Shown: positions 6,154 to 19,269 of the stretch, in pieces
Layout of the letters: every line of letters starts with the position of its first letter
How positions within the stretch are numbered: the first letter of the stretch is position 1
DNA from: Deltaproteobacteria bacterium
GTDB lineage: Bacteria; Desulfobacterota; Syntrophia; Syntrophales; UBA2210
DNA: 64,000 bases
Assembly (NCBI GenBank): GCA_019313905.1
Contig: JAFDAI010000002.1
Location: 1-64,000, forward strand
Reading direction: 5' to 3'
Made by a program: the position numbers and the translations under genes
The notes under the pieces: generated by a model
Database searches by the model: none
The model's input: only the letters and a program-made list of their open reading frames with translations
What the model was told of the DNA's origin: nothing

Positions 6154-7554
6154 ATGGGCGAAGAGCTGAAGGAAGAATTGCAGGAAATACTTGATAAAGC
6201 ACGGAAAGCACAAGCAATCGTTGAGCACTGGTCACAGGAAAAGGTTGATGAGATGGTGTTGGCTGCAGCCTGGGAAGCTATTATACCGGAACATGCCAGG
6301 GAATGTGCCGAGCTTGCCGTTAAAGAAACGAAAATGGGTATTTATGAGAACAAATATGCCAAACACCGCAACAAGATCCTGGGTACTCTTCGCGACATGG
6401 AAGGCGCCAAATCATGTGGCATAGTTGATGAAGACATTGAAAAAGGTCTTTTCAAGGTTGTTAAACCCATGGGCGTTGTTTTCGCTCCGACACCCTGCAC
6501 AAACCCGACGGCAACTCCAGGGGTTATGGGTATTTTAGCACTGAAAACCCGTAACGCGATCATCTTTGCACCCCATATGATCGCCCGCCGCTGCGCTAAT
6601 AAGACTGTTGAATATCTGAGAGCAGGACTCAAGAAAGTCGGCGCCCCCGAAGATCTGATACAGGTAATGGAAAGACCTTTCATCGAGGATATTCAGTCAA
6701 TGATGAAAGCCTGTGATATAGTTATTTCCACTGGCGGTACTCAGTCTGTTATTGCAGCTTATTCCAGCGGCAAACCGGCACTCGGAGTCGGAGCCGGAAA
6801 TTCAGTCATGATCGTCGATGAAACTGCTGATATTGCCGATGCAGCCGAGAAGATCTTCATGAGCAAAACGTTTGACAACGCCACTTCCTGCTCCGCTGAG
6901 AATAATCTCGTTATCCAGGAGTCGGTGTGGAATCAGACCATTGATGCCCTCAAATCCCACGGTGGTTACCTCTGTAATGCCGAGGAAAAAGCCAGACTGA
7001 AAGAGGCCGTCTGGCCGGATGGTGTCCATATCAATGCCAAGGTCGTGGCACGTTCTCCAGTCAGAATTGCCAATAAGATCGCCGGCCTGAACGTTCCCGA
7101 GGATACTAGATTTATCATGGTTCTTGGTGATGACCCGGTCAAAAGTGACAAGTTTGCTGATGAAAAGCTTTCAGTGATCGTAACTCTCTGGAAATATAAG
7201 AACTTCAGCGATGCTATTGAATATCTCAATAAAATTCACGCGATCCGTGGCATCGGTCACTGCTGCGGCATCCACACCACCAGCGAAGATCGTATTTATG
7301 AGCTTGCCGAGCAGGCAAAGGTCAGTCGCCTGATGGTCAACCAGCCGCAGTGCCTCGCGAACAGCGGAGCAACCACCAACGGTATGCCATGGACCATGAC
7401 ACTCGCCTGCGGCACCTGGGGTAACAACAGTTCATCGGATAACATAACCTGGAAACATATGGTCAATCATACATGGGTTTCCAAACCAATTGCTGAATAT
7501 AAGCTTGATGAAGATAAGCTTTTTAAAACCCATTGGGACAAATACGGGAAATAG
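6154..7554 (+). CDS. CoA-acylating aldehyde dehydrogenase (EutE/AdhE N-domain/SauS-like)
   Basis: A 466-residue NAD(P)-dependent enzyme expected to interconvert an aldehyde and an acyl-CoA thioester. The nucleophile is the Cys in NATSCSAEN, in the same place as in AdhE and EutE. The class lacks the catalytic Glu of ordinary aldehyde dehydrogenases. The nucleotide fold is marked by STGGTQSVIAAYSSGKPALGVGAGN, close to the AdhE version. A clear GAGGAG ribosome site lies five bases before the ATG. An acyl carrier protein gene follows on the same strand after 125 bases, suggesting that the acyl group may be carried on ACP or CoA. Sequence flavour recalls sulfoacetaldehyde dehydrogenase SauS, but substrate cannot be assigned by eye. 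Confidence 0.88.
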   Translation: MGEELKEELQEILDKARKAQAIVEHWSQEKVDEMVLAAAWEAIIPEHARECAELAVKETKMGIYENKYAKHRNKILGTLRDMEGAKSCGIVDEDIEKGLFKVVKPMGVVFAPTPCTNPTATPGVMGILALKTRNAIIFAPHMIARRCANKTVEYLRAGLKKVGAPEDLIQVMERPFIEDIQSMMKACDIVISTGGTQSVIAAYSSGKPALGVGAGNSVMIVDETADIADAAEKIFMSKTFDNATSCSAENNLVIQESVWNQTIDALKSHGGYLCNAEEKARLKEAVWPDGVHINAKVVARSPVRIANKIAGLNVPEDTRFIMVLGDDPVKSDKFADEKLSVIVTLWKYKNFSDAIEYLNKIHAIRGIGHCCGIHTTSEDRIYELAEQAKVSRLMVNQPQCLANSGATTNGMPWTMTLACGTWGNNSSSDNITWKHMVNHTWVSKPIAEYKLDEDKLFKTHWDKYGK

Positions 7555-7679
7555 TACACCCAGACAGCAGGCATGCCGGGAACACTGAAATATAAGAACC
7601 ATTCCGGCGATCCTGGAAACCTGTCAAAGCGCCTTAAGGCGTTTGCCGTTGCATAATAATTTAGAATAGGAGAGCATAC

Positions 7680-7919
7680 ATGGAAAAACAGGAACTTACT
7701 GACAAGCTGCTGGCCTTCTTGAGAAGAGCGCTGGCAAATAAGGATGCACAGGTTGATCCTGAAGCCCCCCTGGTAGACCAGGGACTGAATTCTTCCGGTC
7801 GTCTCGAGTTATTTACCATGATTGAAGACGAATGGGACCTGATGCTGGACGAAGATGATACCGACGAAGTAGAAACCTTCAATGACGTGGTGGCACTGGC
7901 AGAGAAAATGCTGGCCTAA
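7680..7919 (+). CDS. Acyl carrier protein, divergent
   Basis: A 79-residue acidic protein with the ACP helix pattern. The phosphopantetheine site reads GLNSSGRLEL, where most ACPs have G-x-D-S-L: the attachment Ser is kept, but the Asp before it is Asn and the Leu after it is Ser. AGGAG lies seven bases before the ATG. A perfect CGCCTTAAGGCG palindrome lies in the gap after the aldehyde dehydrogenase and could attenuate between the two genes. It is not next to fabF or fabG, so it is more likely a specialised carrier than the housekeeping ACP. A dedicated role with the neighbouring dehydrogenase, fabD and PPTase is inferred. Confidence 0.85.
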   Translation: MEKQELTDKLLAFLRRALANKDAQVDPEAPLVDQGLNSSGRLELFTMIEDEWDLMLDEDDTDEVETFNDVVALAEKMLA

Positions 7920-7943
7920 GCTGTTTTATACCGCGAACAGATC

Positions 7944-7986
7944 AAGAAAACCGGTCCCCAAAGGGCCAGTTTTCTTTGCTTTTACA
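7944..7986. terminator. Bidirectional Rho-independent terminator between ACP and fabD
   Basis: AAGAAAAC at 7944-7951 pairs with GTTTTCTT at 7969-7976, with a GC-rich GGTCCC/GGGCC core and a CAAA loop. Both sides have T-rich or A-rich flanks, so it can end transcripts from the ACP gene (plus) and fabD (minus). Confidence 0.75.
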
Positions 7987-8051
7987 CATCCATTAAAACA
8001 CTTATCAGCTGACACCTCTGTGCCGGCTGTTAACTTTTAAAACCATGCTGA

Positions 8052-8978
8052 TTATGCCAGGACCCTTTTGAGGGTTTCCATGTTTTCAATATTTTTCATC
8101 TTAACATCGCGACTGATTTTCCTCATAAGACCGCACAGCACCTTTCCGGGACCAAGTTCGAAAGCGCTTTCAATTCCAGCCTGCATCATCTTGTCCATTT
8201 CCTCGATCCAGCGCACCGGATGATTAACCTGCTGAGTCAGCAACCGTTTTACATCGTCTTTTGACGAATAAAAATCGGCTTCGACATTGGACAACACGGG
8301 CACATCCAGTTCACCAATCTCAATGGCCTTCAAGGCCTCGCCAAGCCGGTCGGCAGCCGGTTTCATAAGTGTACTGTGAAAGGGCGCGCTTACTGCCAAT
8401 ATTGCAACTCGTTTGGCACCTTCGGCTTCGGCCTTTTCAACAGCCCGCTTGACTGCCTCCGTATGACCCGAAATAACGATCTGTCCGGGAGCATTATAAT
8501 TGGCTGGGGCAACAAACTGCCCTTGGGCGCTTTCTTCGCATATTTTTTCAATCGTATCAGTATCCATCCCCAGAATGGCTGCCATGCCGCCAACTCCTAC
8601 AGGCACAGCTTCCTGCATGAATGTGCCTCTTTTGCGCACAATGCGGACCGCATCGGAAAATTTCAGGGCTCCCGAAGCCACCAAAGCACTGAATTCACCC
8701 AGGCTGTGACCCGCTACCAGCTCGGGAGTAATTGAGCTTTCCTGCTGCAAAACACGCAACGCTGCAACGCTGACAGTCAGAATGGCTGGCTGGGTATTCA
8801 TCGTCAATTTCAAATCATCCTCCGGACCTTCAAAACAGAGTTTTGACAACCCTTTACCCAGGGTATCGTCAGCCTCCGCAAAAACATCAGCGGCTACCTT
8901 GAAATTATCCTTAAGTTCCTTGCCCATTCCGATATATTGGGATCCTTGCCCTGGAAATAAAAACGCACATTTTGCCAT
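8052..8978 (-). CDS. fabD: Malonyl-CoA:ACP transacylase
   Basis: A 308-residue enzyme that moves malonyl from CoA to the ACP phosphopantetheine arm for fatty acid or polyketide synthesis. The N-terminal FPGQGSQ, the nucleophile elbow GHSLGE (catalytic Ser), the substrate Arg in VRKRG and the catalytic His in APFHS are all present. It lies alone on the minus strand with a strong promoter upstream, not in the usual fabH-fabD-fabG run. It converges on the ACP gene. It may be the only FabD of the cell or a second copy serving the neighbouring carrier protein. Confidence 0.95.
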   Translation of the reverse strand: MAKCAFLFPGQGSQYIGMGKELKDNFKVAADVFAEADDTLGKGLSKLCFEGPEDDLKLTMNTQPAILTVSVAALRVLQQESSITPELVAGHSLGEFSALVASGALKFSDAVRIVRKRGTFMQEAVPVGVGGMAAILGMDTDTIEKICEESAQGQFVAPANYNAPGQIVISGHTEAVKRAVEKAEAEGAKRVAILAVSAPFHSTLMKPAADRLGEALKAIEIGELDVPVLSNVEADFYSSKDDVKRLLTQQVNHPVRWIEEMDKMMQAGIESAFELGPGKVLCGLMRKISRDVKMKNIENMETLKRVLA

Positions 8979-9022
8979 GACCTTACCTCTATTATTAATA
9001 GTTGCTTTGTTGAAAATGGAAA

Positions 9023-9051
9023 ATTATAAGGTAACGTTTCACCGGTGTCAA
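9023..9051 (-). promoter_or_regulatory. Sigma-70 promoter of fabD
   Basis: On the minus strand TTGACA (9051-9046) and TATAAT (9028-9023) are both perfect, with a 17-base spacer, about 45 bases before the fabD start. This is the best housekeeping promoter seen in the window. Confidence 0.75.
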
Positions 9052-9123
9052 TGCAAAAACCACAGGCGATAGAGTCTCTTTGGTTGCTATATTTTCGCAC
9101 CGAGGAGAAAAGCTGGATGAGCA

Positions 9124-9789
9124 CTATTTAATAAGGACGATACCGGTGAACACTTCCCCCTCATATAACAGGTAGCGCCCTCGAAGGGACGAAAATGATG
9201 GAATCCGTGAGGTAATTTTATCCGTCAGCCGGACCTTAAATGAGAAACCATCCGCGTGGGGAATAATCTCCGCGTCGTGAAATCTGGCGCCTTTCCCCAC
9301 AAGGGGGGACAGGCATTTATAGATTGATTCCTTGGCACTAAAAATCAGTGTAAACCATTTTCTGCTTTCATCCGCGGCCTGCCTGCCAACCCAGTCCATT
9401 TCGCTGTCGGTGAGAACCCTTTTGGCGATGCTGCGCGTAACGCGATCAGCCGTCTCGATGTCAAAACCAACTCCTAAATAATCGCTTTGCCGCGCCACAG
9501 CCGCGCCACACCACGAATCAGTATGGGAAATAGCCCCGACTATTCCCGGGGGCCATGCGGTTGAACCATCGGATTTTCTGGCCAGCACACATTCCTGTAT
9601 GCCCAGACTTTCAAGCGCGCTCCGGGCACACATTCTGCCGGCGCCAAACTCGTTACGCCGACTGGCAACGGCTTTTTTAACGACAGTGGCCTCTTCCCGG
9701 TGCAACGCATAGTGTTTATCCTCTATGCGGCAGCATTCAGTGAAAACGCGATCGGGAAATAATTGTTGTATATTCGGAGCGTCTGGCAT
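9124..9789 (-). CDS. 4'-phosphopantetheinyl transferase, Sfp/EntD type
   Basis: A 221-residue enzyme that loads the phosphopantetheine arm onto carrier proteins. The hallmarks are the substrate block IVGAISHTD, the Mg-binding GFDIET and the second block FSAKESIYKCL with catalytic Glu and Lys. The N-terminal layout (C-CRIEDKHYALHREE, then RRNEFGAGRMCAR) resembles the EntD branch. It lies upstream of fabD in the same direction, with a 145-base gap containing the fabD promoter. Sitting within 2 kb of a divergent ACP, it is a good candidate for the activator of that carrier. Confidence 0.92.
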   Translation of the reverse strand: MPDAPNIQQLFPDRVFTECCRIEDKHYALHREEATVVKKAVASRRNEFGAGRMCARSALESLGIQECVLARKSDGSTAWPPGIVGAISHTDSWCGAAVARQSDYLGVGFDIETADRVTRSIAKRVLTDSEMDWVGRQAADESRKWFTLIFSAKESIYKCLSPLVGKGARFHDAEIIPHADGFSFKVRLTDKITSRIPSFSSLRGRYLLYEGEVFTGIVLIK

Positions 9790-9990
9790 TTGACATATCC
9801 CATCAACAACTTCTTAAACGAACCATCTCTCTGCGAGTGAACGTGAGAAATTTCTGTATCGCCCGGCTAAATCCCGATAAATCGGAACTAAAACTCGCGC
9901 TAATGCACCCAGACAGTTAGATTTTCACGGGGTCGGACACTGTCAGCACATTTTTCCCCAAAACGTTTGAATACACTACGAAAAAACTTT

Positions 9991-10773
9991 TTATGACAAT
10001 GTTGATAGCTTATCAATAAAATCTTTTACAGCCGCATTAAACGCATTCCGCCTATCGATCATTACCACATGACCCGCGTCCGGAATAATGCAAAGCTCGC
10101 TTCCCGGTAGACTCTGGTTCATCTTTTCCGGCAGATCGCGGGCAGTTATCAGATCATCTGCCCCCCAGATAATAAGGACAGGCTGTTTTATTGATGATAT
10201 CCAATCCGAACTGTCAAAAAGACCCGCTGCCAGTAAATCGGCCTGCAGTGCATCGCTGCCCATTTCCCTGAGCATTGTAAGACCCTGTTTAAATGAATCC
10301 GGAACATCCATCCCGCAGGAAGAAATGTTGTCAATAACATCCTCTGCCGAGAGATCAACCCCCTTTTCATACAGTTTGCGATACATACGAGAGAGCCTGA
10401 AAACGGTGCTGGTACCCACAAGTACCAGTCCCTTTATTTTGTCGGGATGTGCCCGGACATATTCCTGTGCAATTGCTCCGCCGAATGAGTGACCCATAAG
10501 AAAAAATGAGGAAAGGCCAAGAGCTGTAGTAAATTGGTCAAGCCATGCGGAATACTCTTTAACCGATGTAAGAGGCGTGCCACCGGATCTGCCATGACCG
10601 GGCAGGTCAGGAACAATGATTTTAAAGTACTTGCTGAGTCTGCTTACCTGGTAACCCCAGACAAGCCCGTTAGCCCCGGCACCGTGCAGGCACACAACAG
10701 CATGCTCTTTATCAATCCCCCGCTTTGATATCCGGTAATGATACTCATTACCATCTATTGTCACACGCGCCAC
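9991..10773 (-). CDS. Alpha/beta-fold hydrolase
   Basis: A protein of about 260 residues with the alpha/beta-hydrolase core: oxyanion region VVCLHGAGANGLVWGYQ, nucleophile elbow GHSFGG, acid in WGADDLIT and catalytic His in DAGHVVMID. A TTG at 10800 opens the frame, but the GTG at 10773 has GGGGG six bases upstream and matches the usual N-terminus, so I chose it. Members include esterases, thioesterases and C-C hydrolases. Its place after an acyl-carrier island makes a thioesterase role attractive, but this is inference. Confidence 0.88.
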   Translation of the reverse strand: MARVTIDGNEYHYRISKRGIDKEHAVVCLHGAGANGLVWGYQVSRLSKYFKIIVPDLPGHGRSGGTPLTSVKEYSAWLDQFTTALGLSSFFLMGHSFGGAIAQEYVRAHPDKIKGLVLVGTSTVFRLSRMYRKLYEKGVDLSAEDVIDNISSCGMDVPDSFKQGLTMLREMGSDALQADLLAAGLFDSSDWISSIKQPVLIIWGADDLITARDLPEKMNQSLPGSELCIIPDAGHVVMIDRRNAFNAAVKDFIDKLSTLS

Positions 10774-10954
10774 GGCAAACCCCCATTTGACATGAGCCAA
10801 TGCCTTTCAAAAATTGCAGGTAATTATTCTGTGTGAAATCTGTTTACACTGCCCCATAATATGAACCAGCGTTATCCGGACAGCGAACTTGTGGGCAAAA
10901 CAGGACACACCCGTCGCCTGAAACAGCAGCTTTCGAACCATCCGGGTTGCGGCC

Positions 10955-12586
10955 CTACCACCTCAGGATGGAGATAAAACACCCGCCGCCACCACCACCG
11001 CCTTCAGCGCAATTGGTCGAGAATGTCTTGTCGGCTCCCCCTATTGTCCCGGCTGTGTTTGTCGCCACAATTCGATAATGATAGGCAGTGCATGCAGAAA
11101 GTCCCGAGATATCAACTCTGACTGAAACATCGCCCGTCCCTGAACCGGCATCCATGCTTGCCGTTGCCGATCCGTAAGCGGTTGTTGCCCCGTATTCGAA
11201 GTGATAAGTCGTGCTTGAGTGATTAGGATTGACTGTGCCTCCCAGTGTAACTGTATTAAGACCCACCGAGGCAGCCACCCCTGTTGTTACCATCGGGGGA
11301 ATGGCAAGGGTGGTAAAGGTTTCGTCATTTCCATAGGTAGTACCCTCACTATTTGTCGCCACTATTCGATAATGATAGGTGGTATGGACATAAAGGCCAG
11401 TGATATCAACGTTGACTGCAACATCGCCCGTCCCTGAACCGGCATCCATGCTTGCCGTTTCTGATCCGTAAGCGGTTGTTGCCCCGTATTCAAAATAGTA
11501 AGTTGTACTCTCCATGCTGGGATTTACTGTGCCGTTTAGTGTCGCGGAGGAGAATGTTATCGAAGAGGCAACCCCCGTGGTCACCGCGGGCGCTGTTCCG
11601 TAATCTACATCCAGCGTCTGCCAAAAGAGATTGTGGCCTCCCTGGTCATCCGCGCAGTCATAATCCATGTCCATATCCACGCGGAAAAGCCCGGTCGGGC
11701 GGTCTGTGGTCGTTCCCCAGGAATTCAGCATTATCCAGTAAGAATTGGCCGGCCAGTCATCGTCATTGTAGCCCACACATAAAACCGCGTGACCACCGCC
11801 CCCGGGTGTTGTGTAGGGCTCGCCGCACGTACTATCAAAGTTCCACAAAACGTCTCCCTCCTGACTGTTCCAGAAGGTACGAAAAGCAGTCCAATTGTCC
11901 GCGGTACCCATGAAAAAGGCAAACCAGACAGCCTTATTCTGATCCAGAACACTTTTGATATTGGCGATGGCCTGTGCCTGGCCGACACCATGCGTTATGA
12001 TCGTCTGTGTCTCTATGGATTCTATGGGGTACCTTGGTAAAGTGGAAATATCTTCGCATGCCACACCGGATTCCCCGTCGGAGCATCGACTGCTGCCATC
12101 CTGCCAGCTTGCATTTGTATTGGACCAGGGAATGGTCCGTCCCTTATCCGAACAAAAGTCTGCAAGATCCGACAGCCAGCCCCCGCAGCAGGCATAACTG
12201 GTATCGCATGAATTCAGATATTGAATTGAGAGACGATCATAGATGCCTTCCTGAACATCCAGAGCGATCGCCATTACGCCGGTACCGGCCCAGACCCAAC
12301 AGTTGCCGCAGGACCCCTGGCTACGCGCGGAGGGCGTGTATTCCAAATGACTGAGGAGACTGAGTGAACCACGCGGGGAGGGAATACCGGGCTTGACCCG
12401 TTCGCCCGACAGGGCCCTTGGCGCATTTTCATAAGCCCGTATCCATTCCATACGTATTTCATCATCCGGGTGCATTATGGCATAATCATCTGACTCTTCA
12501 CCGGACCATGCCCAACCCGCTGAAAATAGAACCAGGATAAGGCTTAAAACCAGCCATAACGTCTTTTTTCTCATAGAGTTTCTCAT
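10955..12586 (-). CDS. Secreted papain-family (C1) cysteine peptidase with two fibronectin-like repeats
   Basis: A 543-residue exported protein. Residues 1-29 form a Sec signal peptide (MRNSMRKK, then a hydrophobic stretch to AWSGE). The peptidase domain covers about 60-330. It has the oxyanion Gln in QGSCGNCW, catalytic Cys96, His266 in GGGGHAVLC, and Asn288 in LNSWG; no long inhibitory propeptide is seen. Two repeats with a 98-residue period follow (about 333-523), each with NP, FEYGATTAYGS and TYHYRIVATN blocks of fibronectin type III-like folds. The end is a Gly run, then CFISILRW, like a shortened version of the Gly-rich CFIATAAYG tails of other deltaproteobacterial surface proteins. The start overlaps the upstream lipoprotein stop as ATGA. 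Confidence 0.9.
   Translation of the reverse strand: MRNSMRKKTLWLVLSLILVLFSAGWAWSGEESDDYAIMHPDDEIRMEWIRAYENAPRALSGERVKPGIPSPRGSLSLLSHLEYTPSARSQGSCGNCWVWAGTGVMAIALDVQEGIYDRLSIQYLNSCDTSYACCGGWLSDLADFCSDKGRTIPWSNTNASWQDGSSRCSDGESGVACEDISTLPRYPIESIETQTIITHGVGQAQAIANIKSVLDQNKAVWFAFFMGTADNWTAFRTFWNSQEGDVLWNFDSTCGEPYTTPGGGGHAVLCVGYNDDDWPANSYWIMLNSWGTTTDRPTGLFRVDMDMDYDCADDQGGHNLFWQTLDVDYGTAPAVTTGVASSITFSSATLNGTVNPSMESTTYYFEYGATTAYGSETASMDAGSGTGDVAVNVDITGLYVHTTYHYRIVATNSEGTTYGNDETFTTLAIPPMVTTGVAASVGLNTVTLGGTVNPNHSSTTYHFEYGATTAYGSATASMDAGSGTGDVSVRVDISGLSACTAYHYRIVATNTAGTIGGADKTFSTNCAEGGGGGGGCFISILRW
11027..11584 (-). repeat. Tandem fibronectin-like repeat within the C1 peptidase gene
   Basis: Two coding repeats of about 290 bases, period 294 bases. 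A nearly identical core encodes FEYGATTAYGS and ASMDAGSGTGDV in both copies, showing recent duplication or gene conversion. Confidence 0.8.
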
Positions 12587-13276: not shown

Positions 13277-14347
13277 TTATATCTTGCCCGGCTCATATGC
13301 ACAGAATGGTTCTTCAGCCAGGTAGTCTCCGGTGATCTCATACGCGCGGGCGCGGCATCCCCCGCACACCTTCAGAAATTCGCAGCGGCCGCATTTTCCT
13401 CTGTATTTCCCCAGATCCCTGAGCTCATTGAAGATTCTGGAGTTATTCCAGATATCCTCAAATTTCTTTTCTTTGAGCTGCCCGCAGTCAACCTCAAGAA
13501 ATCCACATGGCTGCACCTGTCCGGTATTTGAGATAAAACAGAATGAGCTTCCCCCCATACATCCTCTTGTCATGGAATGCAGGGGGTTTTCCATCTCTTT
13601 CAGCTTTTTATTACTCTCTTTTTCCCTCTGATGAAAGATCCGGTAATACTGCGGAGCGCAGGTGGCCTTGAGTTGAATCGGACATGTAAGACTCTGCTCA
13701 TAAAACCAGCCCAGCGTTCTCTCATAATCTTCCGGTGAGATTTCCTGATCGGCCAGCTCCCTGCCGCGACCCGTCGGAACCAACAGGAAGATATGATGGG
13801 CAGCCGCACCCAGTTTTACTGTCAGGTTAAAGATGTCTTCGATATGATCCCGGTTGAATCTGGTTATTGTGCTGTTGATCTGAAACTCCATTCCCGCCCG
13901 CTTAAAGGTATTAATACCCGCCATTGCGCCGTCAAAGGCGCCCGGCACCCCGCGAAAGGCATCATGACTTTTCGCGTCATGACCATCTATACTTACGCTG
14001 ACCCTCTTTATCCCGGCGGCAATAGTCTTCTGTGCAATCTCATCCGTAACGAGGGTGCCATTCGTCGCGAGAACCATGCGAAGACCTTTTTTCTCTCCAT
14101 AGGAGGCAATTTCAAAGATGTCTTCGCGGAAATAGGGCTCACCACCGGTAAGAATAATTACGGGGGAGCTGAAAGCGGCTATATCGTCAAGAAGTCGGAT
14201 ACATTGTCTGGTATCAAGTTCTCCTTCGTATGGGCCGTATTTCGATGACGCGCGGCAGTGCACGCATGAAAGATTACATCTCCGGGTAACCTCCCACGCA
14301 ATCATGCGAAGCGTATGAGGCAGGATTAAAGATCGTTTAGAAACCAT
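13277..14347 (-). CDS. ahbD: AhbD-type heme synthase (radical SAM/SPASM)
   Basis: A radical SAM enzyme of about 356 residues expected to convert iron-coproporphyrin III to heme b by oxidative decarboxylation, the last step of the siroheme-dependent pathway. The cluster motif CNLSCVHC (C24, C28, C31) is near the N-terminus, followed by LTGGEPYFRED. The C-terminal SPASM region has CGFLEVDCG and CGRCEFLKVCGGCRARA. The frame opens at 14488, but the ATG at 14347 has GGAG nine bases upstream, starts at the conserved N-terminus and follows hemB by 29 bases. Assignment to AhbD rather than NirJ rests on similarity and on ahbC and hemB beside it. Confidence 0.88.
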   Translation of the reverse strand: MVSKRSLILPHTLRMIAWEVTRRCNLSCVHCRASSKYGPYEGELDTRQCIRLLDDIAAFSSPVIILTGGEPYFREDIFEIASYGEKKGLRMVLATNGTLVTDEIAQKTIAAGIKRVSVSIDGHDAKSHDAFRGVPGAFDGAMAGINTFKRAGMEFQINSTITRFNRDHIEDIFNLTVKLGAAAHHIFLLVPTGRGRELADQEISPEDYERTLGWFYEQSLTCPIQLKATCAPQYYRIFHQREKESNKKLKEMENPLHSMTRGCMGGSSFCFISNTGQVQPCGFLEVDCGQLKEKKFEDIWNNSRIFNELRDLGKYRGKCGRCEFLKVCGGCRARAYEITGDYLAEEPFCAYEPGKI

Positions 14348-14376
14348 TACTGACAACTCCGTCAACCTCGAAACCT

Positions 14377-15348
14377 TCACCTCAGCAGTTCGGCTGCTTC
14401 CTGCGCGAAATAGGTGATTATAATGTCCGCTCCGGCCCTCTTGATAGACACCAGGGATTCCATCATGGCCTTTTTGCCATCGAGCCATCCCAGCTTGTCC
14501 GCCGCCTTTATCATGGAAAATTCGCCGCTGACGTTGTAGGCCGCTATGGGCAGATCAAATTCATCTCTTGCTCTTCGTATAATATCAAGATAGGAAAGGG
14601 CCGGTTTCACTATGATGATGTCGGCTCCCTCTTCAATATCAAGGGCAATTTCCCTGATCGCCTCGCAGCTGTTGGGAGGATCCATCTGATATGACCTTCT
14701 GTCACCAAACTGCGGCGCTCCTTGAGCGGCTTCCCGGAAAGGGCCGTAAAAGCATGACGCGTACTTGGCCGAATATGCCATAATAGGTATATCCTCATAA
14801 CCCTCATCATCAAGCATTCCCCGGATCGCGCAAACCTGTCCATCCATCATGGCCGACGGCGCAACCATATCGGCCCCAGCAAGCGCGTGTGACAGCGCCG
14901 TTCGCGCAAGCAGCTCCAGAGTAGCGTCATTGTCAACCTCGCTGCCATCGAGTATCCCGCAGTGGCCGTGGCTTGTGTATTCGCAAAGACACACATCCGT
15001 AATAACCAGGATATCCGCGATTTCATCCTTGATCTTTCTTACCGCCTGCTGGATAATCCCATCCTCGGCCCAGGCGCCGGAACCCTCTTCATCCTTTGCC
15101 TCGGGTATGCCGAAAAGCATGATCGCGGGTATGCCCATACCTTTTATTTTCTTCACTTCCTCCACAAGATTATCAATCGACATCTGGAAATTTCCCGGCA
15201 TGGAAGAAATAGGATTCTTCACTCCCCTGCCATGGGTCACAAACAGGGGACAGACAAGATCATCAACCGACAATCCGGTCTCCCGGATCATCCTTCGGAA
15301 ATTCTCGTTTTTTCTCAGCCTTCTCGGACGGTAATCAGGAAAATTCAT
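14377..15348 (-). CDS. hemB: Porphobilinogen synthase (delta-aminolevulinate dehydratase)
   Basis: A 323-residue enzyme that condenses two aminolevulinate molecules to porphobilinogen. The zinc site is the three-Cys type ([14 protein letters not shown]). The two active-site lysines lie in [16 protein letters not shown] and [15 protein letters not shown]. It overlaps ahbC by four bases and precedes ahbD, so the three are one operon. The start is ATG at 15348 behind AAAGGTG. Confidence 0.97.
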
Positions 15349-16564: not shown

Positions 16565-16692
16565 AAAAAGTCAAGATTGACGGCAAAGTAAAAAGCTTCA
16601 AGTTCAAGGCACGCAAATCATTAGGAATGAGGCGTACTTACGGTACGCCGCAGTGACGAAGGATGCAGCGGAACGTAGAAATTGGACTTTTT
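16565..16692. repeat. Dispersed repeat-like element with inverted ends and a central hairpin
   Basis: The gap between ahbC and the cobA-hemD fusion begins with AAAAAGTC (16565-16572) and ends with GACTTTTT (16685-16692). In the middle is a perfect hairpin, GGCGTAC at 16631-16637 and GTACGCC at 16643-16649. Elements of this look are frequent between genes in deltaproteobacterial chromosomes. One end overlaps the stop codon of the upstream gene, so it may also shape the mRNA end. Confidence 0.55.
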
Positions 16693-18199
16693 ACGAAGCC
16701 GTCTTTATTGCCTCCACCAGACCGGGAATCGAATAAGGCCCCTGCATGATATCGACTCCGAGACCGGCTTTTCTGCACGCATTTTCCGTTACCGGGCCTA
16801 TGCACGCGATCTTTATATGATTCGGAATGGTTGTTCCATTTCCGATAATATCCATAAAATTAGTCACTGTGGATGGACTTGTAAAGGTAATCACGTCGAT
16901 TTTTCCACTGTCCATCAATTCTTTAATGGTCTCCCCAGCCTCACCGGAATTTACTGTCTTGTAAGCGGTTGCCACATCCACATTTGCACCCAGTTCCGAG
17001 AGTCCGCCGGGAATAATATTCCCGGCAATCTCCGCTCTTGGCAGAAATACGTTTGCACCCGCAACATCCATACCCCTGAACGCCTCCACCACTCCATCGG
17101 AGATGTACTCTTCGGGAACCATGTCCACCCGGATACTATATCTTTCAACGCGGGCCCGGGTGGCCGGACCTATGGTACAGATCTTTATCCCCTTGAGATC
17201 CCTTATATCATTTCTCAGTTTACAGAAACGCTCAAAAAAGAATCTCACACCATTCGCGCTGGTAAATACAATCCAGTGATATTTTTCAATATTCTCTATG
17301 GCCCGATCCAGATCGCCATAATCTTCCGGCGGCACAATCCTGATGGTCGGAAAGGAGATGACCCTTGCCCCTTCATCACGCAGAAGCGCCGCGAATTCTT
17401 CCGATTGTTCCTCCGGTCTCGTGATAACAATGCCCTTCCCGAAGAGTGGTTTCTTCTCAAACCAGCCAAGACGCTCTCTCAGACCGACCACATCGCCCAC
17501 GACAAACACGGCGGGAGGTGAAAATTTCTTCTCCTTCGCCAGTGTAGCTATATCCCCGAGCTTCCCCGTCAGTGTCTCCTGATCCGGGGTTGTTCCCCAC
17601 CTGATCAGCGCTACAGGAGTATCCGGACTCCTGCCATTTTCCATGAGGTTGGATGCAATTTTGGAAAGATTCCTTACACCCATAAGAAATACGATTGTTT
17701 CAATGGTGGATATCTTTTTCCAGTCGATGCGGCTTCCAGCTTTGTCAGGATCTTCATGCCCCGTTACAAAGGCAAGGGTGGAGGTAAATTTTCTGTGCGT
17801 AAGGGGTATTCCGGCATAGGCAGGGACGGATATTGCCGATGTTATACCCGGCACCATCTCAAAGGGCACTCCCGCCTTCTGAAGAAATTCGGCCTCCTCA
17901 CCACCCCTCCCGAATATGAATGGGTCTCCTCCCTTGAGCCTGACCACTGTATTTCCCTTTAAGGCCTCTTCCACAAGTATGCGGTTCAGGTTTTCCTGAG
18001 ATATATTGTGATGTCCCCCTATCTTTCCAACATAGACAAGCCGCGCGCCTTTCCCGGCGCGCCGCAGTATCTCCTTTCCCACGAGATAGTCATGCACAAC
18101 TACATCCGCCCTGCGCAGGCACTCTACCCCCTTAATCGTTATAAGATCCGGATCACCGGGACCCGCGCCTATTATATATACCTTTCCGGGTTTTTTCAT
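16691..18199 (-). CDS. cobA-hemD: Uroporphyrinogen-III C-methyltransferase/uroporphyrinogen-III synthase fusion
   Basis: A protein of about 502 residues with two activities. The N-terminal half (to about residue 245) is the SAM-dependent methyltransferase making precorrin-2, with VYIIGAGPGDPDLIT, YVGKIGGH, RLKGGDPFIFGRGGEE and PGITSA. The C-terminal half, from ITRPEEQSEEFAALL onward, is HemD, which closes the uroporphyrinogen III ring. The GTG at 18241 that overlaps the hemC stop is possible, but the ATG at 18199 gives the family N-terminus. The fusion channels hydroxymethylbilane from HemC straight towards siroheme, the branch that feeds AhbC and AhbD. Confidence 0.95.
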   Translation of the reverse strand: MKKPGKVYIIGAGPGDPDLITIKGVECLRRADVVVHDYLVGKEILRRAGKGARLVYVGKIGGHHNISQENLNRILVEEALKGNTVVRLKGGDPFIFGRGGEEAEFLQKAGVPFEMVPGITSAISVPAYAGIPLTHRKFTSTLAFVTGHEDPDKAGSRIDWKKISTIETIVFLMGVRNLSKIASNLMENGRSPDTPVALIRWGTTPDQETLTGKLGDIATLAKEKKFSPPAVFVVGDVVGLRERLGWFEKKPLFGKGIVITRPEEQSEEFAALLRDEGARVISFPTIRIVPPEDYGDLDRAIENIEKYHWIVFTSANGVRFFFERFCKLRNDIRDLKGIKICTIGPATRARVERYSIRVDMVPEEYISDGVVEAFRGMDVAGANVFLPRAEIAGNIIPGGLSELGANVDVATAYKTVNSGEAGETIKELMDSGKIDVITFTSPSTVTNFMDIIGNGTTIPNHIKIACIGPVTENACRKAGLGVDIMQGPYSIPGLVEAIKTAS

Positions 18200-18240
18200 A
18201 TCAGTCTCTTCACCTGTTGCCACGCCACGCGGGACAGGCA

Positions 18241-19269
18241 CTACTTGTATATTTCGTCCAGAACAGCCCGCCCGCCTCTGGACAGTATATTCTCAGCCAG
18301 GGTGTTTCCCATATCCTCCCAGTCACTGCTGGGCCCCCTGATCTCGTCTGTAATCATGACTTTTCCATCAACACTCCCCACAAGGCCCTTAATGATCAGA
18401 CCGTCTCCATGCTTCCTGGCAATGCCTGCTATCGGCACCTGACATCCCCCTCCAAGACGTCTGAGAAACGCGCGCTCGGCGGAGATTTCCACCAGGGTAT
18501 CCGGGTAATTGAGGGAGGAGATGAGATCTTCAGCTTTTCTGTCATCCTCTCTCAGCTCTATGCCCAGCACCCCCTGCCCGACCGATGGCATCATAACTTC
18601 AACTGGTATATACTGCGAGATTTCTCTGCCACGTCCCATCCTCTTCATCCCGGCAGCCGCTATAATTATTCCATCCAGATTTTCCGTTATAATCTTCTTT
18701 ATTCTCGTGTCTATGTTGCCGCGCACAGGGACGATCTCTATATCCGGCATCAGGTTTTTGATCTGCATTCCCCTCCGGAGAGAGCCTGTGCCCAGTCTTG
18801 CCCCTTTGGAAAGTTTCTCCATCTTCGTGCCTTCCCTGGAAATCAGCACATCTCTCGGATCTTCTCTCTCCGGTATAGCTCCTATCATCAGACCATCCGG
18901 GAGATCCACGGGGACATCCTTCATGCTGTGAACCGCAATATCTATATCTCCCCGCAGCAGCGCTTCTTCTATCTCCTTTACGAAGATCCCCTTGCCCCCG
19001 ATTTCCACCAGGGAGATATTCTGCACCCTGTCTCCGCGCGTCCTTATCGGAACAACCTCCACAGACATGTCCGGATACAAACTCTTCAGACGATTCGAAA
19101 CCCAGTTCGCCTGTACAAGCGCAAGGTCACTTCCACGTGTGCCTATCAGTATCTTCTTGATTCTATTTCTCCTTTTACCCGCTATCCGATCAAGGCCGGG
19201 CACCAAATCCGATATTTTGCTTAACAGAAAGATACAGACTTTCGAGGAAAGACTTCGAGCAGGCGTCAT
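18241..19269 (-). CDS. hemC: Porphobilinogen deaminase (hydroxymethylbilane synthase)
   Basis: This enzyme joins four porphobilinogens into hydroxymethylbilane. Seen are ILIGTRGSDLALVQANWV, GDRVQ, the catalytic Asp in HSMKDVPVDLP, and the dipyrromethane-cofactor Cys in LGGGCQVPIAG. The start is uncertain. ATG 19269 overlaps the upstream stop as TAATG but adds about 36 unusual residues. The family N-terminus (KKILIGTRGS) begins near 19161, where AAAGGAG is followed seven bases later by ATC, a very rare start codon. A GTG at 19203 lacks a ribosome site. The catalytic call is certain; the N-terminus is not. Confidence 0.95.
   Translation of the reverse strand: MTPARSLSSKVCIFLLSKISDLVPGLDRIAGKRRNRIKKILIGTRGSDLALVQANWVSNRLKSLYPDMSVEVVPIRTRGDRVQNISLVEIGGKGIFVKEIEEALLRGDIDIAVHSMKDVPVDLPDGLMIGAIPEREDPRDVLISREGTKMEKLSKGARLGTGSLRRGMQIKNLMPDIEIVPVRGNIDTRIKKIITENLDGIIIAAAGMKRMGRGREISQYIPVEVMMPSVGQGVLGIELREDDRKAEDLISSLNYPDTLVEISAERAFLRRLGGGCQVPIAGIARKHGDGLIIKGLVGSVDGKVMITDEIRGPSSDWEDMGNTLAENILSRGGRAVLDEIYK

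Follow-up and report, generated by a model that had tools for sequence, protein, structure and literature searches.

A conserved aldehyde dehydrogenase and acyl carrier protein pair beside a separable fabD module in a deltaproteobacterial genome

What do an acylating aldehyde dehydrogenase (Ald), an acyl carrier protein (ACP), a malonyl-CoA:ACP transacylase (FabD), a phosphopantetheinyl transferase (PPTase) and a hydrolase do together when they are encoded side by side? The preliminary description of the window, the 64,000-nucleotide stretch of DNA that was analysed, placed five such genes at positions 6154 to 10773 and suggested a small route that makes or uses an ACP-bound aldehyde or acyl group. 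All five ORFs are found at that place and, in agreement with that description, none of the ten proteins searched between 5334 and 14488 is a ketosynthase. The end of the hydrolase gene given previously, 10773, would be an internal start; the ORF reaches 10800. The features of the block are:

6154 to 7554, plus strand: Ald, an acylating aldehyde dehydrogenase of SauS/SucD/AdhE-N type
7680 to 7919, plus strand: a divergent, apparently dedicated ACP, in which Ser38 caps the N-terminus of helix II
7945 to 7975, no strand assigned: hairpin between the convergent modules, predicted as a possible two-way terminator
8052 to 8978, minus strand: FabD, malonyl-CoA:ACP transacylase, a probable housekeeping copy of xenologous origin
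9023 to 9051, minus strand: sigma-70-like -35/-10 promoter upstream of FabD (12 of 12 positions, 9051 to 9023), a consensus match alone
9124 to 9789, minus strand: PPTase, an Sfp/PptT-type 4'-phosphopantetheinyl transferase (PF17837, PF01648)
9991 to 10800, minus strand: alpha/beta hydrolase with a GHSFGG nucleophile elbow, a member of the second module

A terminator shared by the two sides had been proposed. A hairpin is indeed located where the strands converge, with folding energies of -16.6 kcal/mol (7925 to 7985, plus strand) and -20.4 kcal/mol (7935 to 7985, minus strand), but a terminator scan of the region did not rise above chance (8 found, 6.5 ± 2.6 expected).

The ACP is as odd as first described, scoring 24.7 bits against the TIGR00517 model (cut-off 70.45) and carrying the serine motif NSSGRLE. 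It contains an ACP domain (PF00550, 26.8 bits; gathering threshold 20.8), and its predicted fold is that of a canonical ACP (pLDDT 95.7). Strong matches to it occur in 11 genomes, comprising nine of the 395 in the G155 phylum search together with G000 and G005. The phylum search matched 12 genomes, of which G421, G488 and G542 contain other ACPs without an adjoining Ald and are not counted as pairs; a second match in G543 is also another ACP and is not counted. The 11 proteins form a private clade, in which the attachment serine, Ser38, is invariant (11 of 11) and the ten others are 49–92% identical to the ACP of the window. No tblastn match was obtained among 72,556 plasmid records.

The block is conserved, yet as two modules, Ald-ACP and hydrolase-PPTase-FabD. 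Ald and ACP are encoded on the same strand in every one of the 11 genomes, with the ACP gene directly 3' of the Ald gene at a distance of 32–292 bp (32–48 bp in seven). At 102 other Ald-like (SauS/AdhE-like) loci, an ACP never adjoins Ald; in one of them an ACP ORF is located some 5 kb from it. Some loci of this set are truncated by the end of their contig, and at least one is counted twice (as L059 and L121). The linkage in 11 of 11 genomes rejects a chance neighbourhood of Ald and ACP, a rejection that does not extend to the whole block. FabD is convergent with and adjoins the pair in five genomes, and is located elsewhere in six. All five genes occur in the same order in four genomes, and the recurrence of this order in three besides that of the window (G005, G226 and G429) is more than chance; the hydrolase is kept beside PPTase and FabD in G226, G429 and G189. 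Thus, conservation of the grouping in relatives, the check suggested in the preliminary description, holds for more than near-copies (4 of 11 genomes for the full order, 5 of 11 for adjacency of FabD and ACP). A single five-gene route is not supported: the conserved core is Ald-ACP alone, and FabD is separate in six genomes. The genes flanking the pair vary between genomes, and therefore the context points to no substrate.

The best NCBIfam match of Ald is SauS (NF047625), over the full length. Four paired Alds, that of the window included, score 507, 517, 524 and 520 bits with this model, all below the curated cut-off of 600, and no sulfoacetate pathway genes were found among the window neighbours of Ald that were searched. 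The scores with the EutE/AdhE models are far below the cut-offs (TIGR02518, 334 bits with a cut-off of 620; NF010378, 395 bits with a cut-off of 951). In a tree the nine full-length paired Alds form a single clade with support of 100/100; those of G429 and G543 are clipped by contig ends and were excluded from the tree and from the residue counts.

Ald is closest to succinyl-CoA reductase, with SucD as the best PDB match (TM 0.92–0.93), and the catalytic residues C246 and H369 are present in the alignment. In CkSucD (PMC10249356), Lys70 and Ser243 hold the distal carboxyl group, and Thr365 is described as assisting the protonation of CoA on its release. Lys70 and Ser243 align with K74 and S247 of Ald (distal anion site), which are Lys and Ser in all nine paired Alds and in 36 of 36 SauS-like Alds, whereas the seven rows that we labelled AdhE/EutE-like in this analysis have Ala or Ser in place of the lysine and Ala in place of the serine. 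Retention of the residues that bind a distal carboxylate points to an acyl group that is short and acidic rather than fatty, and makes a long-chain fatty aldehyde route unlikely.

The position of Thr365 is occupied by Cys370 in 9/9 paired Alds, by Ser in 36/36 SauS-like Alds, and by Ser or Thr in SucD-like rows from other genomes; among the sequences compared, C370 is exclusive to the paired clade. The G429 fragment likewise shows GHCC. Further changes specific to the clade are M142, S192, S198 and F110, at positions where the relatives are uniform or nearly so, and which we place, from ALDH motif positions, presumably in the cofactor/CoA pocket. The clade-specific residues may reflect descent or altered NAD(P) binding instead of a change of carrier. 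In net charge the paired Alds are no more positive than their relatives, so that a basic docking face is not indicated at this coarse level.

Acylating aldehyde dehydrogenases are known as CoA enzymes. The constant position of Ald beside its own ACP suggests that it loads or unloads the ACP in place of free CoA. We tentatively propose that Ald is an ACP-acylating semialdehyde dehydrogenase which functions as a pair with the ACP; we infer that the ACP is the acyl partner, as we do the substrate class, which possibly includes malonate semialdehyde, succinate semialdehyde or sulfoacetaldehyde. Conversion of the ACP to holo-ACP would be due to this PPTase or to a different one of the same cell. 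Ald would then couple a short aldehyde with a distal anionic group to the phosphopantetheine thiol, giving a thioester while NAD(P)+ is reduced, or, in the opposite direction, would reduce acyl-ACP to the aldehyde. The acyl group would be held on a private carrier, outside the CoA pool. A second module, consisting of FabD, PPTase and hydrolase, accompanies the pair in some genomes; FabD would serve chiefly general fatty-acid synthesis and could also load malonyl onto this ACP. In a more specific form, which we consider unlikely, the enzyme would be of a new type: a dehydrogenase for malonate semialdehyde or a related compound that uses a private ACP instead of CoA, has the Cys370 thiol at the leaving-group site, is loaded by FabD or feeds malonyl-ACP directly to fatty-acid synthesis, and has spread with FabD as a mobile block displacing the fabD of the recipient. 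Our literature search found no acylating aldehyde dehydrogenase paired with a private ACP, nor did titles on CoA-binding structures or sulfoacetaldehyde. If the clade is tied to one dedicated carrier, it would show a central reaction carried out on a carrier protein, would offer clear residue predictions that can be tested, and would possibly give a handle on the aldehyde metabolism of uncultured deltaproteobacterial lineages.

FabD itself (TIGR00128, 365.9 bits; cut-off 260.9) carries GQGSQ, GHSLGE, RGTFMQEA and PFHS, which we take to be the Gln/Ser/Arg/His catalytic motifs. Four genus-mates have a different fabD, within a fatty-acid operon. That operon copy is gone from the genome of the window, and the window FabD, the sole match above the cut-off there, belongs in the tree to the clade of the Ald-ACP genomes. 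A housekeeping role is therefore most likely. The same clade provides the main stand-alone FabD in all nine other Ald-ACP genomes, wherever it is located, and a pathway-specific acyltransferase is a weak candidate for that reason. The objection raised in the preliminary description, that fabD and the PPTase gene might be the only genomic copies and serve general metabolism, applies in large part to FabD, which replaces the operon copy, but not to the PPTase, since a second one is encoded on contig C36. The PPTase of the block scores above gathering for both 4PPT_N (79.3 bits) and ACPS (63.9 bits). Its clade is present in nine Ald-ACP genomes (G000, G005, G155, G189, G226, G364, G429, G469 and G543; for G259 and G288 the analysis covered just the surroundings of FabD) and in none of the 58 other relatives of G000. 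The hydrolase was rejected as BioH (TIGR01738, 85.5 bits; cut-off 206.95) and, scoring far below the cut-off, as PcaD.

The lineage probably acquired the block by transfer, and the genes beside Ald-ACP look like fatty-acid housekeeping genes that came along with the pair. There is no compositional mark of recent transfer (GC content 0.48 for Ald, 0.474 for the window), and the case for transfer thus rests on the trees and the genus-mates. Contamination of the bin is 5.05%. However, the same contig is present in another assembly from the genus, G005, where the proteins of the five genes are 87–96% identical, in agreement with the 90–100% at contig C36; this counts against contamination as the origin of the block, though not fully. 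The loss of an essential fabD from its operon and its replacement from another lineage, beside the pair, looks like a clean case.

A serious contender is that two unrelated modules share a place, with Ald-ACP doing its own job and hydrolase-PPTase-FabD carried along as a fatty-acid housekeeping set. The separation of FabD from the pair in six genomes, its role as main FabD in the nine others and its takeover from the operon copy all favour this explanation, whereas the recurrent convergent layout in five genomes and the confinement of the PPTase clade, among the genomes searched, to Ald-ACP genomes speak for a closer tie. It can be compatible with a functional Ald-ACP pair. More doubtful is that Ald is an ordinary CoA-dependent enzyme of the SauS/SucD type and that the ACP is acylated afterwards or regulates Ald. 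Although Ald retains every catalytic residue of its CoA-dependent relatives and has SauS as its top match, all four paired Alds tested fall short of the SauS cut-off, C370 is confined to the clade, and none of the 102 relatives has an ACP beside it.

It is also conceivable, but improbable, that the pair serves a nearby redox complex of the membrane, comprising NrfD, DsrO-like and fused DsrM/K-like proteins and c-type cytochromes, in which the ACP would act as a thiol carrier or as a structural component. Five genes for such a complex, with families assigned on G226 only, are located directly upstream on the same strand in G155, G189, G226 and G469. However, they do not adjoin the pair in the window or in G005, G288 and G364 (the flanks are too short in the remaining genomes), orthologues with 66–76% identity are found on other contigs in G259, G288, G364, G429 and G543, and relatives with 38–51% identity occur in the genus with or without Ald-ACP.

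The proposed ACP-acylating Ald resembles SucD from Clostridium kluyveri (8cei, 8cej, 8cek) in fold, in the catalytic Cys and His and in the Lys/Ser pair for the distal carboxyl; it differs in sequence (37–38% identity), in having Cys370 instead of Thr365 and in its adjoining, dedicated ACP. SauS-like relatives share K74 and S247, but those examined lack an adjoining ACP, and Ald scores under the equivalog cut-off of SauS. With EutE and the N-terminal acetaldehyde dehydrogenase domain of AdhE it shares superfamily and chemistry, and is set apart by the scores and by the residues at positions 74 and 247. The cyanobacterial acyl-ACP reductase (AAR) converts an ACP thioester to an aldehyde and is thus similar in principle to the proposed activity; no AAR model is among the family matches of Ald, whose predicted site is for a short acidic acyl group, not a fatty one. 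Finally, the ACP shares with type II ACPs such as AcpP the PF00550 domain, the fold and the serine at the helix II N-cap, and is distinguished from them by its low TIGR00517 score, its NSSGRLE motif and its private clade.

The preliminary description placed five genes at 6154-10773 of the window, and all five are real open reading frames in the order it gave:

6154-7554, plus strand: aldehyde dehydrogenase (Ald)
7680-7919, plus strand: acyl carrier protein (ACP)
minus strand: FabD
minus strand: Sfp-type PPTase
minus strand: alpha/beta hydrolase

Ald belongs to PF00171, and its top NCBIfam match, SauS, scores 507 bits, short of the 600-bit cut-off; the PP-binding domain of ACP is weak (26.8 bits), and FabD scores 366 bits against a cut-off of 261; the other two were assigned by family. 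Upstream of Ald, on the opposite strand, lie zapB and zapA, along with genes that we take to be rny and ymdB, and past the hydrolase a gene for a papain-like protease comes next, then ahbD, a heme gene. The protease (10955-12586) has no match in NCBIfam; it contains two closely matching repeats, each about 80 residues long, and ends in a glycine run followed by CFI, presumably akin to a sorting tail. The heme b synthase AhbD (13277-14488; 561 bits against a cut-off of 500) and a nearby fused uroporphyrinogen-III methyltransferase/synthase (16691-18241) form a predicted siroheme-dependent heme route. A 1259-residue protein at 25898-29677 matches GlmS in part only (248 bits against a cut-off of 381) and carries large unexplained extensions.

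Among 60 genomes comprising that of the window (G000) and its relatives, only G005, a second assembly of the genus, has a close Ald (96%) and ACP (94%); the remaining Alds in the class (155 genomes) reach at most 49% and the remaining ACP matches at most 35%. Among the 80 Ald loci kept in a contig scan, the window-type ACP was found only on the G005 contig and at L098, from a Deltaproteobacteria MAG (G155) with an Ald of 78%. A profile built from these three ACPs (G000, G005 and L098) matched 12 of 395 genomes of the latter's phylum, nine of them with E < 1e-30, and in all nine the gene preceding ACP is an Ald (64-79% identity). With G000 and G005 included, Ald stands directly before ACP in 11 of 11 genomes, mostly fragmented assemblies. 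A general ACP profile, which detects ordinary acpP genes, found no ACP adjoining Ald at 102 other Ald-like loci, some of which end at contig edges. Kinship was left in these counts (G259 with G288, G469 with G543 in the FabD tree, and G000 with G005), and the number of independent lineages is nearer eight.

Hydrolase, PPTase and FabD recur as a separate same-strand set, which accompanies the pair in G000, G005, G226 and G429 (in G429 the PPTase is split over two frames). FabD adjoins the pair in G364, with the PPTase 3 kb distant; all three genes lie together but apart from the pair in G189, as do PPTase and FabD in G469 and G543. In G155, this PPTase and FabD occupy separate contigs. G259 and G288 have FabD without a PPTase within the at most 1.5 kb visible on each side. 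From this distribution, the proposed island of five genes holds as a conserved layout but not as an obligate grouping.

In G155, G189, G226 and G469, the pair is preceded by five further genes:

L239:9949-15297: five-gene membrane complex, directly upstream of Ald-ACP
L238:2730-8133: five-gene membrane complex, directly upstream of Ald-ACP
L098:152-5672: five-gene membrane complex, directly upstream of Ald-ACP
L241:11402-16238: five-gene membrane complex, directly upstream of Ald-ACP

Pfam assignments, made on the G226 locus L239 only, are a cytochrome c, a DsrO-like ferredoxin, NrfD, a fused NarI/CCG protein and a multihaem cytochrome. The fused protein occurs in all nine genomes at 66% or more to the G226 copy (G226 being the query), and in five of the nine it is on other contigs than the pair. 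We regard the linkage suggested by this gene order as a lead, not a requirement.

The window FabD is the sole copy above cut-off in G000, where a second match, on contig C73, scores lower. PP-binding domains occur in G000 on C170 (acpP adjoining fabF), in the window ACP and on C36, and PPTases in the window and on C36. G005, the closest relative, additionally has AcpS. There, ACP, phosphotransacetylase, AcpS and acetate kinase are consecutive on one strand (L216:142-3312, contig C103), another carrier protein adjoining a thioester enzyme; this ACP has no counterpart among the PP-binding matches of G000.

The genus-mates G001, G002 and G004 share a row of a presumably YceD-like gene, fabD, fabG, acpP and fabF, and G006 has the same row with no acpP among the ORFs listed there. 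The corresponding row of G000 is without fabD, and in G005 a FabD of the genus-mate type was not found, as judged by an absent match. When 46 FabDs are placed in a tree, the G000 and G005 copies lie inside the clade to which the other nine Ald-ACP genomes belong (98/100); there they join G226 and G364 (91/92), away from the genus-mates. In the Ald tree, the Alds of G000 and G005 are also nested in the paired clade (100/99). Probably the block was transferred into the window's lineage and the native fabD was lost, which would account for both placements; base composition bears no mark of transfer at the block. In G001, a FabD-like gene (L214:819-1790) heads a cluster of a PPTase and genes that we take to encode KSIII and KS. 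A different gene is at that place in the window's genome (L045:1292-2914), from which this second native FabD-like gene also seems to have been lost.

The Ald model (pLDDT 91.9) best matches succinyl-CoA reductase of C. kluyveri. Catalysis by this enzyme uses Cys242, its distal-carboxyl site consists of Lys70 and Ser243, and protonation of the released CoA is aided by His364 and Thr365 (PMC10249356). By alignment, the window equivalents are C246, K74, S247, H369 and C370. K74 and S247 are retained in all nine full-length Alds of the Ald-ACP genomes and in 36/36 SauS-like relatives without an adjoining ACP. The rows that we take, from the Ald tree and presumed family, to be AdhE/EutE-like (n=7) have Ala or Ser at 74 and Ala at 247, and those taken to be SucD-like (n=5) have Lys at 74 and Ser (3) or Ala (2) at 247. 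This pattern favours a substrate whose acyl group is short and bears a distal anion. Malonate semialdehyde would be attractive because FabD supplies malonyl groups, although FabD probably serves a general role in the main. Position 370 is Cys in 9/9 paired Alds; the SauS-like rows have Ser there (36/36), and the 12 remaining rows have Thr or Ser. The paired clade has twenty invariant positions whose residue occurs in at most 10% of the SauS-like rows, and C370 alone among them is placed at the thiol by the SucD paper (PMC10249356). We infer that Ald may have exchanged CoA for the ACP arm as its thiol partner.
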